A DNA stretch of 47,596 nt from a virus, in the IMG/VR virus record IMGVR_UViG_3300050821_004236, positions 1 through 47,596 of that record. One strand, written 5' to 3'. Of this stretch, positions 3,563-44,536 are shown in pieces. The position numbers and the translations under genes were made by a program. The first letter of the stretch is position 1. The number at the start of each line of letters is the position of its first letter. A model generated the notes under the pieces. The model was not told where the DNA came from. It searched no databases and saw only the letters and a list, made by a program, of their open reading frames with translations.

Positions 3563-3727
3563 ATGAAACGCCAAGCTGAAATGGAGATAAGAAGGTTGAA
3601 AGCGGGAATGTGCGCCAAGTGCGGCAAAAGGAAGCGTAGGCCGGGCCGCAGACATTGCGAAGAGTGCGCTGTAAAAGTGTCCAATGCAGCACTGGCACGG
3701 TACTACGAAAAAAAGGCGAGCGTATGA
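3563..3727 (+). CDS. Zinc-ribbon protein, first gene of rightward operon
   Basis: The start MKRQAEMEIRRLKAGMCAKC at 3563 is chosen because the promoter's -10 box ends at 3555, ruling out an in-frame start at 3497. The mRNA would be leaderless; alternatively translation begins at an internal ATG (residue 16). CAKC and CEEC, 15 residues apart with a basic loop (GKRKRRPGRRH), form a zinc ribbon, followed by a short helix. Its TGA overlaps the next ATG. Proteins of this CxxC-GRRHCxxC type are common and poorly known in phages. Confidence 0.7.
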   Translation: MKRQAEMEIRRLKAGMCAKCGKRKRRPGRRHCEECAVKVSNAALARYYEKKASV

Positions 3728-4203
3728 ATAGGCGGTTTACAGAAAGACAAGTCATTCGCGCTTTCTGGAAGCGCGTGAATAAAAATGGTCCTTTGCCACT
3801 TGACAGACCAGAGCTTGGGCGATGCTGGTTGTGGATGACAGGAATTAAGGGCGATGGATACGGGGCGTTTACGGCTAATGGCAAAAGCCTTTTGGCTCAT
3901 CGGTTTAGTTACACTATTCTTATTGGCCCAATTCCTGATGGGCTAGAACTTGACCACCTGTGCCGCCGTACAGGATGCGTTAATCCTTCCCACCTTGAAC
4001 CCGTAACTAGCCTTGAAAATACGCAGCGCGGAGAACGCGCAACAAGAACACATTGCCGACGTGGGCATCCATATTCTGGTTCTAACCTCTACTTGCTCCC
4101 GCACGTAAAGGGTCGTGACTGCCGTACATGCAGGAAATTGGCTAATCAAAAGCGTAAGAAAGCGAAAAATGAACAAAAAATCGCCAACTCAATTATCGCT
4201 TGA
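3724..4203 (+). CDS. HNH endonuclease (HNH_3 type)
   Basis: 159 aa, ATG at 3724 (ATGA overlap). Family signs in order: GRCWLWMTGIKGDGYGAF, AHRFSYTILIGPIPDGLELD, HLCRRTGCVNPSHLEPVT and a following N. This is the classic core of HNH_3 homing-type nucleases; the LDHLC His, the N in CVNPSHLEP and its His are the expected metal and catalytic residues. The C-terminal part has a second Cys/His group (HCRRGHPY, CRTCRKL) that probably binds zinc and DNA. It nicks or cuts DNA and may be mobile, though it fits the operon perfectly. Confidence 0.9.
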   Translation: MNRRFTERQVIRAFWKRVNKNGPLPLDRPELGRCWLWMTGIKGDGYGAFTANGKSLLAHRFSYTILIGPIPDGLELDHLCRRTGCVNPSHLEPVTSLENTQRGERATRTHCRRGHPYSGSNLYLLPHVKGRDCRTCRKLANQKRKKAKNEQKIANSIIA

Positions 4204-13489: not shown

Positions 13490-14014
13490 ATGCCTAAGCT
13501 TCATGTTCGTAGACACGAAGTCATTCAGCCGCTGGACCAATCTTACCGTCTGATTCCACTTACACAAGGCCAAAACGCCATCGTAGATGCTGCTGATTTT
13601 GAGTGGCTTTCGCAATGGAATTGGTATGCTCATTGGTCCCCAGGTACAAAAACATTTTATGCCGTTAGAAATAAAAGCCCAAACATGCATCAGTTGATTC
13701 TCGGTTGCGGCACAGATGATGACATTGATCATAAAAATAACGATACTTTGGATAATCGGCGAAACAATCTCAGGAAATGCACTCATGGTCAGAATGCTGC
13801 GAATACAAAACGAAGAACTAAATGGGGGTACAAGGGCGTAGTTTTTTATCCAACTGCAAGAAAACATAAATGGAGCGCCCGTATTGTGAAGGATGGTAAA
13901 CACATTCATCTCGGAATGTTTTTGACAGTAGAAGAGGCTGCTAAAGCGTATGATGCGGCTGCAAAGATTTATCATGGGGAATTCGCGCAAACTAATTTCC
14001 CTGAGCACTATTGA
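13490..14014 (+). CDS. HNH homing endonuclease with AP2 domain
   Basis: 174 aa, ATG at 13490 with GTGGAGGTAGGAT upstream and a TATAAT box at 13451-13456 (no good -35). Core: MHQLILG, DIDHKNNDTLDNRRNNLRKC (about residues 77-97) and a TKRRTKWGYKGV linker; then an AP2 DNA-binding domain with KWSARIVKDGKHIHLGMF, TVEEAAKAYDAAA and NFPE. HNH+AP2 is a standard homing-nuclease architecture. It lies on the opposite strand to the late operon, between the secreted protein and the fibre gene, overlapping the latter by 7 bp: a clear mobile insertion. Confidence 0.92.
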   Translation: MPKLHVRRHEVIQPLDQSYRLIPLTQGQNAIVDAADFEWLSQWNWYAHWSPGTKTFYAVRNKSPNMHQLILGCGTDDDIDHKNNDTLDNRRNNLRKCTHGQNAANTKRRTKWGYKGVVFYPTARKHKWSARIVKDGKHIHLGMFLTVEEAAKAYDAAAKIYHGEFAQTNFPEHY

Positions 14015-36017: not shown

Positions 36018-36980
36018 TTACGTTCCGTAAGACCAAAAAGTCCCTCTCCAGGTTGTCGCGCCAACACTGAAGCGCATCGTAGACTTGAACAGCAAAACTT
36101 CCGTCTTGAAATCGTCATCGGTCGCGGCCATGAGCGGCTCCCGATTGTATTTCTTGAGCTGATGTCCTTCTTTGTCGGTCAGCAAGCCCCATCCAAAAGG
36201 TGTGGTCAGGTAGTTCAATTCAAGGCCAGTCAAGTGCTCGCCCTGAATCCAGTTCAATTCGTTGTTTGCCGATCCAGGCACGCCGCCAGAGCCAAGCAAC
36301 TCGCGCACGTTGCGGCGATTTTGCTCCGCGTGAACAAGATACTTCGGCTTTACGTGGGCCGGAATCCCTCGATCATCGGGTTGCAGCGCAATCATTGTGA
36401 TGGCTTGCTGCAACGCAGTGTTCGTCAAATCTGAATCGGGGGTTGGGCGATTCGGGTATGTGCCGGCAGAATTGATGATGGTAGAAATGTTAGGCGCAAG
36501 AGTCGTTGCCTGTGAGCCGCCCATCAAAGGCTGCGCGGTATTGAACAGCGTAACGCCGTTCGTGGTAGTGATGGAAGTTCCGCCAAGGTTGAACAGAGAG
36601 CACGATACCGCTTCTTCCGCGTACAGTGCGGAGCGTGCATGGGACTTGGGAACATTATTGATGATTCCATACTTGTCATCCGCAATCAGTTGCCGCGTGG
36701 CCTCGGTCAGCAGTCCGTACTGAATGTGGACATACTTCCGCGTGCCGCCCTGAATGATGCCATCAGCGGCGGGCGCAGATCCTTCTTGCATCATCGGCAT
36801 CGGCCCAGTGCCCGAGAGTTCGTAGTCGATCTCGTAGGCATCTTCCGACTGCATCTCGTTGATGTAGTGGGTGAACTGTGGAGCGTGCTCCTTGAGGTCG
36901 GTGGCCTGCCAGAAAATAAAACGTAACCCAGGCGCAAGAAGCGGGGGGAAGGTATTGCGCAGTAAAATGTTTCCTGGCAC
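36018..36980 (-). CDS. Major capsid protein (Mu gpT/HK97-like)
   Basis: 320 aa. Characteristic blocks: YINEMQSEDAYEIDYELSGT, a P-domain-like RKYVHIQYGLLTEATRQLIA, then ARSALYAEEAVSCSLFNLGG, VTLFNTAQPLMGGSQ (typical of Mu-like capsid LFNTxHP), and AHVKPKYLVHAEQNRRNVRE. These suit the Mu gpT-type HK97 fold. It follows scaffold-like and decoration-like genes in the usual order. A mobile HNH gene on the other strand sits just beside its start. Confidence 0.85.
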   Translation of the reverse strand: MPGNILLRNTFPPLLAPGLRFIFWQATDLKEHAPQFTHYINEMQSEDAYEIDYELSGTGPMPMMQEGSAPAADGIIQGGTRKYVHIQYGLLTEATRQLIADDKYGIINNVPKSHARSALYAEEAVSCSLFNLGGTSITTTNGVTLFNTAQPLMGGSQATTLAPNISTIINSAGTYPNRPTPDSDLTNTALQQAITMIALQPDDRGIPAHVKPKYLVHAEQNRRNVRELLGSGGVPGSANNELNWIQGEHLTGLELNYLTTPFGWGLLTDKEGHQLKKYNREPLMAATDDDFKTEVLLFKSTMRFSVGATTWRGTFWSYGT

Positions 36981-37032: not shown

Positions 37033-37551
37033 ATGCCCTACAAAGACCCCGAAGTTCAAAAACGGTATGATCGTGAAAAGTACCAACGCAACAAAGAAAA
37101 GATTAAGAAGCGGAGCAAAGTCCGCTACCATGCAAACCCAGAGAAATCTCTTCAAGCAAACCTCGAATGGCATCGAAACAACCGCGAGCGATACAATGCC
37201 TACCATCGCGAGTGGCGCAAAAAGCAAACTGAAGAACAAATTGCTCGGAACAGCAAAATGTCGCGTGAATGGTGCAGGAAAAATGCGGGGAAAATTAGAG
37301 CTAAAGTCCGTCTTTATCAAAAACAGAACCCTGAGAAGACTATTGCCCATGCTGCTGTCAGAGCTGCTCTTTATGTCGGGTTCCTTGTGAGGCCGAAGGT
37401 TTGTGACATCTGCGGAAAGCCGTGCAAGCCACATGCACACCATGCCGACTACTCCAAAATGCTTGAAGTAACATGGCCATGTCCGCGTTGTCATAAACTC
37501 CTTCATATAGCTAAAAAGACTCCTAGTCGAAAATCTGAGCAACCGCGTTAA
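37033..37551 (+). CDS. HNH homing-type endonuclease
   Basis: 172 aa, strongly basic N-terminal half made of Lys/Arg helices (EVQKRYDREKYQRNKEKIKK). C-terminal zinc HNH core: CDICGKPCKPHAHHADYSKM, then PCPRCHKLLH. It lies on the opposite strand between the capsid and decoration genes and has its own promoter, like a mobile element. Its last 29 bp overlap the end of the decoration-like gene. The core closely resembles that at 7551. Confidence 0.88.
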   Translation: MPYKDPEVQKRYDREKYQRNKEKIKKRSKVRYHANPEKSLQANLEWHRNNRERYNAYHREWRKKQTEEQIARNSKMSREWCRKNAGKIRAKVRLYQKQNPEKTIAHAAVRAALYVGFLVRPKVCDICGKPCKPHAHHADYSKMLEVTWPCPRCHKLLHIAKKTPSRKSEQPR

Positions 37552-39659: not shown

Positions 39660-39940
39660 TTGTTTTCCGCCTTCCACTTTCGATACTCTTCTTCGAGTCC
39701 CAATAAATCTTCCATTACCAAGCAGGCTCCGCGTTGAACATTTTGCACTGCTATCTGCTCTGGCGTGTACGGCACGTTGTGTACGATCTCATCGCTAGAC
39801 TCTTCGTTCTTAGCGCGGAGGTCCGCCAGCAGTTCCTTCCATCCCTCCGCCGAGAATAGGGATTCCGCCTTCTCCGGGTCGCTGAACAGGGAGGGCCATC
39901 GGAGAGATTGGTTGGGGTTGCTTTCCTTGCGCCGCGCCAT
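39656..39940 (-). CDS. Hypothetical 94-aa protein overlapping the portal gene
   Basis: ATG at 39940 inside the portal gene (131-bp overlap, different frame) and ATGA with the next gene. Basic start (MARRKESNPNQSLRW), then acidic helices (AEGWKELLADLRAKNEESSD, VMEDLLGLEEEYRKWKAENK). It may assist portal or scaffold assembly. The long overlap is unusual even here. Confidence 0.65.
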   Translation of the reverse strand: MARRKESNPNQSLRWPSLFSDPEKAESLFSAEGWKELLADLRAKNEESSDEIVHNVPYTPEQIAVQNVQRGACLVMEDLLGLEEEYRKWKAENK

Positions 39941-41777
39941 TTGTTGGTGCCTCCTCCGGTAACTTGTATTCGATATTCGGCACGTACTCTACTGGGTTGT
40001 CCGACACCTGGAAGTTTTTGAACGTCTCCTGCATGATCTTCGTTCCCGCTTTTATCCAGCTCAACAATGCCTTGCGGTATTCTATCGGCAGGGTTTCATT
40101 CATAACTGCTTGCATCTGCGAACTCGTCTCTTTAACGTAAGCGGAATACGCTTGCTTCAAGATGATTAAATTCTGCTTACTAATTTCCCTGTTGAGGCTT
40201 GCGGACGCGGCGCGTGTGGGAATTCGCATCTTGCGCTTGAGGTAATCGTCAAGCGCCTCTTCCAGAACTTCATCATCGAGGCCGAAAGAATTCCCTTTGC
40301 GTCCTAGTCCAAGGAATCCGTAGAAGTCTGTAAGCAGGGACATCGCTGATACGTGCGAGTGGCGGAAGTCCGATGTCCTGTGGTCGTTGCGCGAGTTTCC
40401 GTCTTGCATTACGGATAGCGTACCCATTGCTGAATACGCGCCTTTTTTGTTTGTTCCTCCCGCTCCTGCTCCAGAGATAGCAGGTCCTACACCAGCGCGT
40501 TCCTTTGCCTGCATAATCATTGCCTGCTCGTTTTGCAGCGACAATCCTGCGAACGCAACGTTGCCCACATCGTAGTGTGCGAACTGGTCTTTCTTCACGG
40601 GTAGGAATACGTTTGGAGCGAGGCGGAAGTTTGGACCGAGGTTTTTGTTTTGCGGGTCTACTGTGTTGATTCCCCACATTGAGACAGTGATTGTGTCGTT
40701 GCGCTGGTTCTTGGCTGTCGAGATTTCTTCCTGGTAGTGCTCCAGCAAGTCAGGGAATCCGCGGCCATCCACCGTTAAGCGTGTTTCAAGAATCGGAATC
40801 TGGTTGTCAGGGATGAAGTTGTAAACGCAGTTCAGAATCTTTTTCGTTTTCAGGTGATACCAAGCCATGAGGCGATGCTTCTTGCCGTGGTGCCACCACG
40901 AGAAGTAGCACTCCCATATTTCCCACTTGGCCGTTGTCTGGTCGCCAGTAGATTCTTGCGTGATTCCCTTCTTCTGCTTCTCCCGCTGCTTCACTTCATT
41001 GGGCTGGTCAGGTTGCGCCATGACCTCTTCCGCTTCGGACCTGCGGTATGTTCCCTTGAACACCCGCTCACGAATCTTGCGAATGTCTAGCGTGCAGCGG
41101 CGAAAGAGTGGGTCTGTCTCCTCGAATACTTTTACGTCAGGGTCGTAGAGAATATCTTCGTAGTCCGCGTTGATTAGCTTCGGACCTTCGTAGAGTGTTC
41201 GGTTTTCAAACTGTGCTTTCTTGTCGCGGTAGCCGGTGTAGACCGCTTCGATTCTGCTCTCGGGTGCTACGATGAGCCATGATCTCCCGCACACTGCCCC
41301 GTCATACCACCACTTGTTTTCTCGTGGATAGAGATTCAGTTCACGCGGGTCATACGCTGCATAGTCCATGAACTGCATCAGCGTCTCTGCTCGGTGGGCG
41401 TACTTCTCTGCGAGTTTCTGCTCCACGGTCCCTGTGAAGTAGCGGTACAGCACAATCGGAGAAGTCATCCACGTGAGCTGCAACACTCGGGCTGCAAGGT
41501 CGTCAATAGCTTCGCCGGCAGTTTGGTGAACTAGATTGCTGGCTCCCTCGAACGGGAATGAGCGGTTCTTTTGGAGCGGCCTACCTTCTGCGATGCGCTT
41601 CCACTTTGGAAGTAATGACGTGTGGATGTTGCGGAGTTGGGCGATGCGGGAGTTTAGATGGCGTTCGAGAAAGTGATTGATTGCCTCTTCAACATCTTTC
41701 CCAAACTCTATAGTGCAGGGGGCGAACGACTCTGACTCAACTGCGTCAATCGATGTCGTTACCGCTGGACTGGCCAT
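39810..41777 (-). CDS. Portal protein
   Basis: 655 aa, the right size for podovirus-type portals. N-terminal helices (VEEAINHFLERHLNSRIAQL), GRPLQKNRSFPFEGASNLVH with the capping loop seen in portals, a beta core (RRCTLDIRKIRERVFKGTYR), then FIPDNQIPILETRLTVDGRG, a long stem helix region (LEEALDDYLKRKMRIPTRAA) and Pro-rich tail. It forms the dodecameric channel at one capsid vertex through which terminase pumps DNA. It follows terminase in the operon. Confidence 0.85.
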   Translation of the reverse strand: MASPAVTTSIDAVESESFAPCTIEFGKDVEEAINHFLERHLNSRIAQLRNIHTSLLPKWKRIAEGRPLQKNRSFPFEGASNLVHQTAGEAIDDLAARVLQLTWMTSPIVLYRYFTGTVEQKLAEKYAHRAETLMQFMDYAAYDPRELNLYPRENKWWYDGAVCGRSWLIVAPESRIEAVYTGYRDKKAQFENRTLYEGPKLINADYEDILYDPDVKVFEETDPLFRRCTLDIRKIRERVFKGTYRRSEAEEVMAQPDQPNEVKQREKQKKGITQESTGDQTTAKWEIWECYFSWWHHGKKHRLMAWYHLKTKKILNCVYNFIPDNQIPILETRLTVDGRGFPDLLEHYQEEISTAKNQRNDTITVSMWGINTVDPQNKNLGPNFRLAPNVFLPVKKDQFAHYDVGNVAFAGLSLQNEQAMIMQAKERAGVGPAISGAGAGGTNKKGAYSAMGTLSVMQDGNSRNDHRTSDFRHSHVSAMSLLTDFYGFLGLGRKGNSFGLDDEVLEEALDDYLKRKMRIPTRAASASLNREISKQNLIILKQAYSAYVKETSSQMQAVMNETLPIEYRKALLSWIKAGTKIMQETFKNFQVSDNPVEYVPNIEYKLPEEAPTNGAAQGKQPQPISPMALPVQRPGEGGIPILGGGMEGTAGGPPR

Positions 41778-42028: not shown

Positions 42029-43735
42029 TCAATACCCCGCAATCCCTGATTGCCTGCTCGCAAAGGCTGCCATCTGTTCCCGTAAGAACTCTCGCGCTTG
42101 TTTGTTGTCGCCAATCTCTACGATCTTGGAGTAGTGTCCCAGAACGTCCAGAGCGTCCAGTTTTCCCGCTGGATAGTTCTCGTAGTCCTCGACGAACTCT
42201 TTCTGCTGGCCTTGCTCTGGATTGCACCAGATTTGTCCCGCCTTGAAGGTTGGCTCTAGGGATTCGATTCTGTTCTTCATCGCTGCTAACGAATCGTCGT
42301 CCTCGAATTCGATGGGGTCTAGCGATATTTTCTCCCGCTTGTCGCGCTCGGTCAGGTAGAACGCAAGCAATTCTTTCGCAGTCTGTCCCATGTACACCGT
42401 TGGCGTCCTTACCTGCTTCAATCCATTCCGCATCGTCCAGTTGCCGTATTGCTTGTACATCTCTTCGACAAGCGTGGAGTAGGTACAGTCTTTCTGCCAC
42501 AACCCGAGCAAATAAATGCGCGAACTCTCTGGGTCGAACCCAATACTCCAAATCACATGCTTCTCGCGCTTTACCTTACGAGCGTGCATCGGGTCCACGA
42601 TGATCGTAATTTCCAACACGCCAGCCATGATGTCTTTGACGGCTGTGCCTTCGTAGACGGCGTGCTCGATCATCAGAGCGTTTCGCAAGTCGTCTTTCCC
42701 GAATCGTGGGTCTGCTTCTTTGAAACGGAAGTTTCTCAGCCATGCCTTGTTGAAAATGCACTCTTCCGGCAGCATGCTTAAATTGCGGTAAAAGTGGGCG
42801 TAGTCGTAAGGTGGATTGTCAATCTTCTTTTGCTCTAGGACTTCCCATGAGAACTCTTCTGGAAATATCGGCACTCCAGGCTCCGAATGTAGCTTGCAGC
42901 ACCCACCCTGGGCGTCGTGCGTCTGAAACTCAAATTGCGGTTGGTTCTTGCGAATCCAAGAGTTTAGGTCCGCGTGGCCCCAGCGATTGCCTACAACCAG
43001 CTGCCGCGTAGCCTTTCCACTTGCTGTGTCCATTCGAGTAGTCAACTGCCGGTGCCAGCGAATTGTGTCCTGAACAATGGAACCATCGCCGGTCAGCATA
43101 GACTTCTGTGCCTTGCGTCCAAACAGGTCGTCCTCGATTGTGTTGTCTGCTCGCACACCTTGTAGCGCGTGCCCTACGCCACAGTAGGCGTAAGTTGGGT
43201 TTGTAGGGTCAATCATCAAGTCGCGGTTGCGCTTCTGATATTTCGCGTGATCGTTCCACTCGCAGTTTCTATCTGGCAAGATTCCTGCGAACACCTGCCG
43301 GAATAAATCGTTGTCATGGTAGGCGAAGTCAACTTCCTTGCCGATGTCTACAGCTCGCTTGTCAATTTCGTGTGCTACCAGCGTGCGCGTATTTGGATTG
43401 TGTACGCTTCGCATGTACTGCATCCAGCGCTTACCGAATCCCAACTTCGACATTTCGTGCTCATCGTCGGGGGTCCAATTCAAAGCCCACCAAATAGAAA
43501 GGGCTGTTGAAATTGTCGTTTTGAACATTCCCATCGGGACTTCGAGCACAAGACGGAGATCATCGGACTCAAGGGAAGCGCACAGGTATTTGTGGAAGGT
43601 AGTTAGGCGAGCCTTGCCGAGGACGTGCTTGGCGAACCAGTACAGAGAGCCGAGACTGTTGAGGCGGACGGCGCGGAAGTGACCTTCGTAATCTTCGGCT
43701 ACATCTGGAACTGTTAGTATTTTCCACTTGCTCAT
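42029..43735 (-). CDS. terL: Terminase large subunit
   Basis: 568 aa from MSKWKILTVPDVAEDYEGHF at 43735. ATPase: Walker A variant EVPMGMFKTT (about residues 65-74), Walker B TIEDD (199-203), and a VVGNRWGHAD coupling stretch. Nuclease: IIVDPMHARK and IGFDPESSRIYLLGLW (near residue 400), followed by acidic DPIEFEDDD. It packs DNA into the prohead through the portal and cuts it. The start lies 7 nt from the tRNA-like gene's CCA end, and no ribosome-binding site is visible there. No small terminase subunit was identified. Confidence 0.88.
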   Translation of the reverse strand: MSKWKILTVPDVAEDYEGHFRAVRLNSLGSLYWFAKHVLGKARLTTFHKYLCASLESDDLRLVLEVPMGMFKTTISTALSIWWALNWTPDDEHEMSKLGFGKRWMQYMRSVHNPNTRTLVAHEIDKRAVDIGKEVDFAYHDNDLFRQVFAGILPDRNCEWNDHAKYQKRNRDLMIDPTNPTYAYCGVGHALQGVRADNTIEDDLFGRKAQKSMLTGDGSIVQDTIRWHRQLTTRMDTASGKATRQLVVGNRWGHADLNSWIRKNQPQFEFQTHDAQGGCCKLHSEPGVPIFPEEFSWEVLEQKKIDNPPYDYAHFYRNLSMLPEECIFNKAWLRNFRFKEADPRFGKDDLRNALMIEHAVYEGTAVKDIMAGVLEITIIVDPMHARKVKREKHVIWSIGFDPESSRIYLLGLWQKDCTYSTLVEEMYKQYGNWTMRNGLKQVRTPTVYMGQTAKELLAFYLTERDKREKISLDPIEFEDDDSLAAMKNRIESLEPTFKAGQIWCNPEQGQQKEFVEDYENYPAGKLDALDVLGHYSKIVEIGDNKQAREFLREQMAAFASRQSGIAGY

Positions 43736-43741
43736 AAAAAT

Positions 43742-43873
43742 TGGCGGCTGGGGATGGAATCGAACCACCTACGCTGGCCCTTGAGTGTATTCGCCCGTCG
43801 TCCATACATAGGCGGTACGCTTATAGGGAAAACCCACTCGGGGGCCACGCTCTACCAGTGAGCTACACCAGCC
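43742..43873 (-). tRNA. tRNA-like gene with a ~56-nt anticodon-loop insertion
   Basis: Full tRNA framework on the minus strand: acceptor GGCTGG.. paired with CCCAGCC, one bulged T, G73 and encoded CCA; D-arm GCTC/GAGC with TA at 8-9 and GG in the loop; variable loop 5 nt; T-arm GGTGG-TTCGATT-CCATC. Anticodon stem TGGCC/GGCCA is perfect but encloses 63 nt (43780-43842) instead of 7. The insertion forms GAGTG/CACTC near its base. Depending on the junction the loop reads anticodon UCA, CCA or CGA. It may be an intron-bearing, broken or regulatory tRNA. Confidence 0.7.
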
Positions 43874-43879
43874 GATTGT

Positions 43880-44536
43880 CTATTCCGAAGTATATAACGC
43901 CTGCGTTCCCTTGAACGAGCGCATTTCCAACTCGCCGTAAAGCTGCGCGATCACGTCCCCGTCCTGGATAATCCGCACGCGCACTTCTTCTTTGCGCCCT
44001 GTCTTTTTTTCGGTTGCTGTAAGCGTGGAGCGATTCCCTGCGTAGGACGGAAACATCACACGGTCTCCGAGATGATACGATTTTGCGTCCGGTCCTACGC
44101 TTACTACTTCTCCGGTCATTGGTTCGCTTTTCTGATTATCAGGGATGATGATGCCAGTGGAAGTTCCTTTTCCCTTGCATTCGGGACAAGGTATAAATCC
44201 ACGGCCCTCGCAGTCGGAACATTTCACGGTAAGCTCTGCGTTCCCGGCCTTCGGTCGTTTCCCAGATCCCTTGCACTCTTCGCAGGTGAGCACAGACACT
44301 TCTTTGCCTTCTATTGTGTGATGCTCTTTATCCATACACTTCAAGCATTCGTATCCGCTACGGTGCTCGTCTTCACGAATAATCACCCGCTCGCCGCGTG
44401 CCTCGAATCCTGTCGCGCCAACCCAGAAAACGTTTCCTTCCTGTCGTACTAGTGCAAGTGAAAAGGCGATAGCTTTTGCTTCCTCTTCGTTTCGGGCTGG
44501 AATAAAACTTCCTGCTTTAGTTTCAATCGGTGGCAT
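43880..44536 (-). CDS. GroES-like co-chaperonin with inserted DnaJ-type zinc finger
   Basis: 218 aa, ATG at 44536 with GAGGGAGCC upstream. GERVIIREDE (about 48-57) looks like the first strand of GroES. Then four CxxC pairs follow: CLKC (64-67), CEECKGSG (85-92), CSDCEGRG (106-113), CPECKGKG (117-124), the DnaJ zinc-domain pattern. After this GroES resumes: GIIIPDNQKSEPMTGEVVSV (128-147), LGDRVMFPSYAG and EVRVRIIQDGDVIAQL. So the zinc finger lies at the place of the GroES mobile loop, which normally contacts GroEL. It may couple host chaperonin to virion protein folding. No GroEL is encoded here. Confidence 0.85.
   Translation of the reverse strand: MPPIETKAGSFIPARNEEEAKAIAFSLALVRQEGNVFWVGATGFEARGERVIIREDEHRSGYECLKCMDKEHHTIEGKEVSVLTCEECKGSGKRPKAGNAELTVKCSDCEGRGFIPCPECKGKGTSTGIIIPDNQKSEPMTGEVVSVGPDAKSYHLGDRVMFPSYAGNRSTLTATEKKTGRKEEVRVRIIQDGDVIAQLYGELEMRSFKGTQALYTSE

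Follow-up and report, generated by a model that had tools for sequence, protein, structure and literature searches.

A putative GroES-type co-chaperonin with a predicted DnaJ-type zinc finger in its mobile loop, from an uncultured phage lineage

Introduction

The co-chaperonin GroES docks on GroEL through its mobile loop, and DnaJ-type zinc fingers are known binders of unfolded chains. HspA of Helicobacter pylori is a GroES with an added metal-binding segment, a C-terminal tail that binds nickel, and alcohol dehydrogenases display a GroES-like fold with an inserted structural Cys zinc lobe. Both differ from the family reported here, in which a finger is placed in the mobile loop: the metal segment of HspA is a C-terminal tail, and the zinc loop of alcohol dehydrogenases, which are not lid proteins, is found elsewhere, after the GDxV strand.

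In GroES, the tripeptide that binds GroEL makes its contacts with helices H and I of the apical domain (PMC3514286). In bacteriophage T4 the GroES homologue gp31 serves the major capsid protein together with the host GroEL, has no roof loops and possesses a longer mobile loop (22 versus 16 residues) (PMC6318259). DnaJ-type fingers are also found without a J domain in the plastid proteins BSD2 and ZnJ2, which have a chaperone activity of their own; ZnJ2 prevents aggregation, and a cysteine-deficient mutant retained this activity (PMC5818400).

Here we analyse a gene from an uncultured virus, IMG/VR virus record IMGVR_UViG_3300050821_004236, whose 47,596 bases are the window referred to throughout. 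Like gp31, its product is a phage-encoded GroES homologue with a lengthened mobile loop and a short or absent roof, but it differs from gp31, for which no zinc finger has been described, in carrying a folded finger insertion of about 60 residues. The beta-1 strand, the tripeptide and the GEV..VG and GDxV strands follow in the same order as in bacterial GroES/Cpn10 (PF00166), whereas the family is set apart by its short roof, by an extra C-terminal segment (GxLELR...) and by the finger that its mobile loop carries in the N-terminal arm. With the cysteine-rich domain of DnaJ (PF00684) the protein shares four CxxC motifs in the same order and with similar spacing; unlike DnaJ, it has neither a J domain nor C-terminal substrate domains. 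A DnaJ-type finger without a J domain is shared with BSD2 and ZnJ2, which in contrast are not fused to GroES. A GroES with a DnaJ-type finger in its mobile loop appears to be undescribed, as the original prediction for this locus had supposed: searches of Pfam, PHROGs, NCBIfam, 50,697 phage records and open-licence papers, together with the listed BFVD matches, yielded no protein built in this way.

Results and Discussion

GroES segments on both sides of a DnaJ-type finger

The gene and the parts of its product are as follows.

43880..44536, minus strand: gene for the putative zinc-finger co-chaperonin; intact ORF with an ATG start, 218 aa, Cpn10 match at E 3.6e-10
44366..44395, minus strand: GroES beta-1 strand GERVIIREDE, residues 48-57; same-offset match in 61 of 65 relatives, predicted strand 50-55
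44165..44347, minus strand: DnaJ-type finger, C64 to G124, with four CxxC pairs; hhalign of the family to E. coli DnaJ 142-204
44144..44152, minus strand: putative GroEL-binding tripeptide III, residues 129-131, 13 residues before the conserved G
43937..44119, minus strand: rest of the GroES barrel, residues 140-200, with a short roof hairpin; Pfam and hhalign to GroES 23-96

From the N- to the C-terminus the protein comprises a leader, GERVIIREDE, four CxxC pairs, TGIIIPDNQKSEPMTGEVVSVGPD, GDRVMFPSYAG and a C-terminal segment. The Pfam profile Cpn10 covers residues 123-174 (E 3.6e-10; 40.2 bits, above the cut-off of 21.1) and DnaJ_CXXCXGXG (PF00684) weakly covers residues 78-124 (E 1.2e-4; 22.7 bits, below the cut-off of 32.7); likewise, a search of NCBIfam returned GroES models and, more weakly, DnaJ models. 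On the N-terminal side of the finger, 61 of 65 dereplicated relatives have their best match to a plain GroES beta-1 strand at one and the same offset, with its start precisely 19 residues ahead of the first cysteine; this is a count over related sequences and not over 65 independent tests. Judging from these alignments, the N-terminal GroES segment is real, and the claim that a single frame carries GroES segments flanking four CxxC pairs stands.

The four pairs of the window protein are C64/67, C85/88, C106/109 and C117/120, and all except the first are followed by a GxG tail. When the family was compared by hhalign with residues 142-204 of E. coli DnaJ, all four CxxC motifs aligned in order (36% identity, E 4e-7). 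The remainder of the protein aligned with GroES 23-96, and the four pairs, originally described as typical of DnaJ, are confirmed as such by sequence. Among 34 relatives, 25 matched the Pfam DnaJ finger at E <= 0.01 (best 6e-8), 24 matched the BSD2 finger PF25436 at the same threshold and 33 matched Cpn10. The block is a predicted two-zinc finger, and its motifs suggest that it would bind zinc.

The Pfam matches of the window protein include no J-domain profile and its sequence has no HPD; as far as sequence can tell, it is not a member of the Hsp40/J-domain proteins. The "Hsp40 activity" originally attributed to the hybrid was consequently too strong, and the J-less fingers of BSD2 and ZnJ2 offer the nearer analogy. 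Since ZnJ2 is active without its cysteines (PMC5818400), the finger may here be structural only, and tying its function to zinc calls for caution.

The AlphaFold2 model of the window protein (mean pLDDT 83.6, pTM 0.63) includes a finger block with pLDDT 92-96 over residues 71-120, and a relative with a short finger, L050, was modelled with a mean pLDDT of 77.5 and a pTM of 0.66. In Foldseek searches of the PDB, the top matches of the window model were GroES, Cpn10 of M. tuberculosis and T4 gp31 (1g31), and those of the short-finger model were GroES/Cpn10 structures. The alignments of the window model span 165-172 columns against targets of 94-107 residues, too long for one side of the finger, so that the GroES segments on both sides appear to be included; the alignments of the short-finger model are likewise too long for a single side. 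TM-scores of the GroES matches were about 0.57-0.71 by target and 0.27-0.43 by whole query, with a high rmsd, and coverage of both sides is judged from alignment length. Among the listed matches to viral models in BFVD the best were Cpn10s with a query TM of at most 0.34, and hence none of these covers the whole architecture.

The finger extends the mobile loop

Alignment with plain GroES places the insertion approximately between E18 and G23/G24 of the E. coli protein. The tripeptide III of the window protein aligns with I25-V26-L27 of E. coli GroES and keeps the same 13-residue spacing to the conserved glycine, and in 72 of 76 relatives at least two of the three residues are I, V, L, M or F, a hydrophobic tripeptide being absent from the other four. 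By this alignment, the finger is inserted into the N-terminal arm of the loop, and the docking tripeptide comes directly after it. The original prediction was therefore right about the position and wrong in taking the loop to be replaced: with the tripeptide at its native spacing, the loop is extended. Replacement by the finger was ruled out, as the GroEL-binding half of the loop is kept. As far as sequence alignments go, the homologues keep the CxxC block inside the loop position, and the expected barrel formed by GroES segments from both sides is only partly borne out, by Foldseek alignments that span the finger at the low query TM-scores given above.

The roof hairpin is shortened, the roof gap measuring 7 residues in 60 of the 76 relatives. 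A full GroES-type hairpin is not required of phage co-chaperonins, because gp31 is also devoid of it (PMC6318259).

This placement bears on what the finger may do. One tentative reading, which we consider possible, is that the finger makes no contact with clients and serves as a rigid arm, stapled by zinc, which prolongs the mobile loop and touches further sites on the apical domain of the host GroEL, enabling the phage lid to outcompete the host GroES or to fit a particular chaperonin. The co-chaperonin part of our preferred explanation, set out below, is retained in this reading, and the two differ in the role of the finger only. The finger immediately precedes the docking tripeptide, gp31 lengthens the same loop too (22 versus 16 residues, PMC6318259), and finger length varies from 21 to 95 residues across the family while the flanking motif is nearly fixed, as might be expected of a host-matching element. 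Against it, in some relatives the roof, which is remote from the GroEL contact, bears a second module, and the four-motif finger is homologous to the DnaJ type, whose members bind unfolded chains.

Relatives, variants and distribution

Protein scans of viral contigs yielded two loci, then three, then 35, and terminase-centred scans added more. The search for homologues with the same insertion, suggested at the outset, gave 76 non-redundant, parseable relatives from viral contigs after removal of near-copies, all with the cysteine cluster at the same place inside the loop. The insertion contains exactly eight cysteines in 62 of them, 9-11 in 12 and four in two, and four CxxC motifs are present in 69. 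Every fully read Cpn10 match of the lineage has the cluster at this site; as the recruiting profiles included a finger-free core and Pfam Cpn10, this constancy does not merely result from searching with the finger. With these two profiles no fingerless relative was seen in the lineage, some contigs having no Cpn10 match (six of 15 in one deeper search), and each of 19 contigs had exactly one.

The architecture is unusual, and an artefact, either a chimeric assembly or two genes joined by a sequencing error, could be imagined. Such an origin has practically no chance of being correct, given the 76 non-redundant sequences from many contigs and a dN/dS of 0.05-0.15 between close relatives, which indicates strong purifying selection where tested; the relatives refute it, and a one-off chimera is ruled out with it.

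Half-finger variants with two CxxC motifs only are found in L050 and L200 (near-copies L202-L204), and a second two-CxxC module occupies the GroES roof position in three separate lineages, L047, L059 and L082. On a tree of the finger-free core the roof-module state requires three changes, at least two of them forced by supported branches; this tree is based on 109 columns with many forks open, and the three changes could also represent one gain and two losses.

At terminase-centred loci the gene is present in 64 of 80 cases. The remaining 16 include 11 with less than 1 kb of upstream sequence, four with 1.7-1.9 kb and one (L125) with the gene elsewhere on the contig. A deeper scan placed the gene near the terminase or elsewhere on the contig, and in about a dozen contigs it does not adjoin the terminase. 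No member of the family was recognised among isolated phages in 50,697 phage records, whose matches comprise GroES-only ones, plain GroES genes wherever they were read, and the finger-only H14 and H15. Scans of cellular genomes requiring short exact peptide patterns returned no members.

Genome context and proposed function

In the window the gene is followed by head genes.

42029..43735, minus strand: terminase large subunit, downstream neighbour; phrog_38, E 8.5e-29
39810..41777, minus strand: probable portal protein, from synteny with terminase in relatives, position and size; no PHROG match
36018..36980, minus strand: major capsid protein, candidate client; phrog_371 major head protein, E 2.4e-8

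The late-operon site before terminase and capsid, already pointed out in the original prediction, is corroborated, as both follow in the same direction. In the family the gene is usually upstream of terminase and portal and in the same direction; among the loci of the first set, the terminase follows in this direction in nearly all (L049 being the exception), and a probable portal gene comes after it wherever the contig reaches far enough. No Cpn60 was found in 13 contigs, which makes the host chaperonin the natural partner.

We propose that the protein is probably a phage co-chaperonin that works like T4 gp31, a GroES-type ring capping the host GroEL so that head proteins fold, with a finger that holds clients or strengthens GroEL binding. 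Having no J domain, and with no phage chaperonin found, it is read as a gp31-like co-chaperonin for the host GroEL. The homology to GroES before and after the finger, the tripeptide in 72 of 76 relatives, the short roof, the synteny with head genes and purifying selection make a gp31-like lid the best-supported reading of these sequences. Counting against it are the low whole-query TM-scores with their high rmsd, the four relatives that lack a hydrophobic tripeptide, the dozen or so contigs in which the gene does not adjoin the terminase, and the activity that ZnJ2 retains without its cysteines. During infection, the ring would cap the host's own GroEL, and phage head proteins would then fold. 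In every subunit the mobile loop would carry, on its N-terminal arm and just before the tripeptide expected to dock in the apical groove of GroEL, a two-zinc finger of the DnaJ type, and the ring would bring seven such fingers to the GroEL rim. There they would most likely keep phage clients (capsid or portal protein) in place or in the right orientation at the mouth of the cage, or else make the binding to GroEL stronger and more specific. A bolder version, which we regard as somewhat doubtful, is that a single ring, through client-binding fingers, would collect phage head proteins at the opening of GroEL and then close over them, making the hand-over from the host DnaJ/DnaK to GroEL unnecessary; in some lineages, the extra roof modules would provide further tuning.

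The neighbourhood of terminase and portal could also be taken as a sign that the protein has retained a GroES fold and no longer caps a chaperonin, acting as a head-assembly or regulatory factor whose finger binds protein or nucleic acid. GroES folds have been reused elsewhere, for instance in alcohol dehydrogenases, and there are weak PHROG matches to head morphogenesis (phrog_931) and, confined to the CxxC region, to Q-like antitermination. Nevertheless, we consider this unlikely, since 72 of 76 relatives retain the GroEL-docking tripeptide with its native spacing and the phrog_931 match is limited to the GroES segment. An inhibitor or decoy, a lid with fingers that would block the host GroEL and stop host folding, is a still fainter prospect: the fingers would indeed sit at the GroEL rim and no phage chaperonin was found in the 13 contigs, but the phage itself needs its large head proteins folded, the gene is in a late-operon position and the features of a lid are conserved.

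A large natural family with a predicted zinc module folded into the GroEL-docking loop, including half-finger and double-finger variants, lends itself to experiments on the way in which lid, chaperonin and client come together. It also suggests that phages may remodel the chaperonins of their hosts more deeply than is seen with gp31, and the architecture serves as a marker for recognising an uncultured phage lineage.

The surroundings of the gene present some further features. Between the co-chaperonin and terminase genes of the window, a tRNA-like gene at 43743-43874 (minus strand) contains a 54-base insertion in the anticodon loop; it was detected by ARAGORN with introns, scores 27.1 bits with the Rfam tRNA model, just below the gathering score of 29, and its anticodon varies with the cut point chosen for the insertion. 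The terminase gene itself is enlarged in some relatives: in L015 (2456-5197; same in L016 and L020) the ORF encodes 913 aa versus 568, an intein-like segment being inserted close to the Walker A region, and in L026 (6553-8997) and L040 (1835-4201) about 0.7 kb, possibly an intron or intein, interrupts the coding sequence. Far from the terminase, a MazG-like small protein, recognised by eye, is encoded next to the co-chaperonin gene in L130 (2361-2702) and L128 (1230-1571). In the head-gene cluster of the window, an HNH-endonuclease-like ORF, also recognised by eye, lies antisense at 37033-37551 (plus strand), and further HNH-like ORFs were noticed in the same manner at 3655-4203 and 13490-14014.
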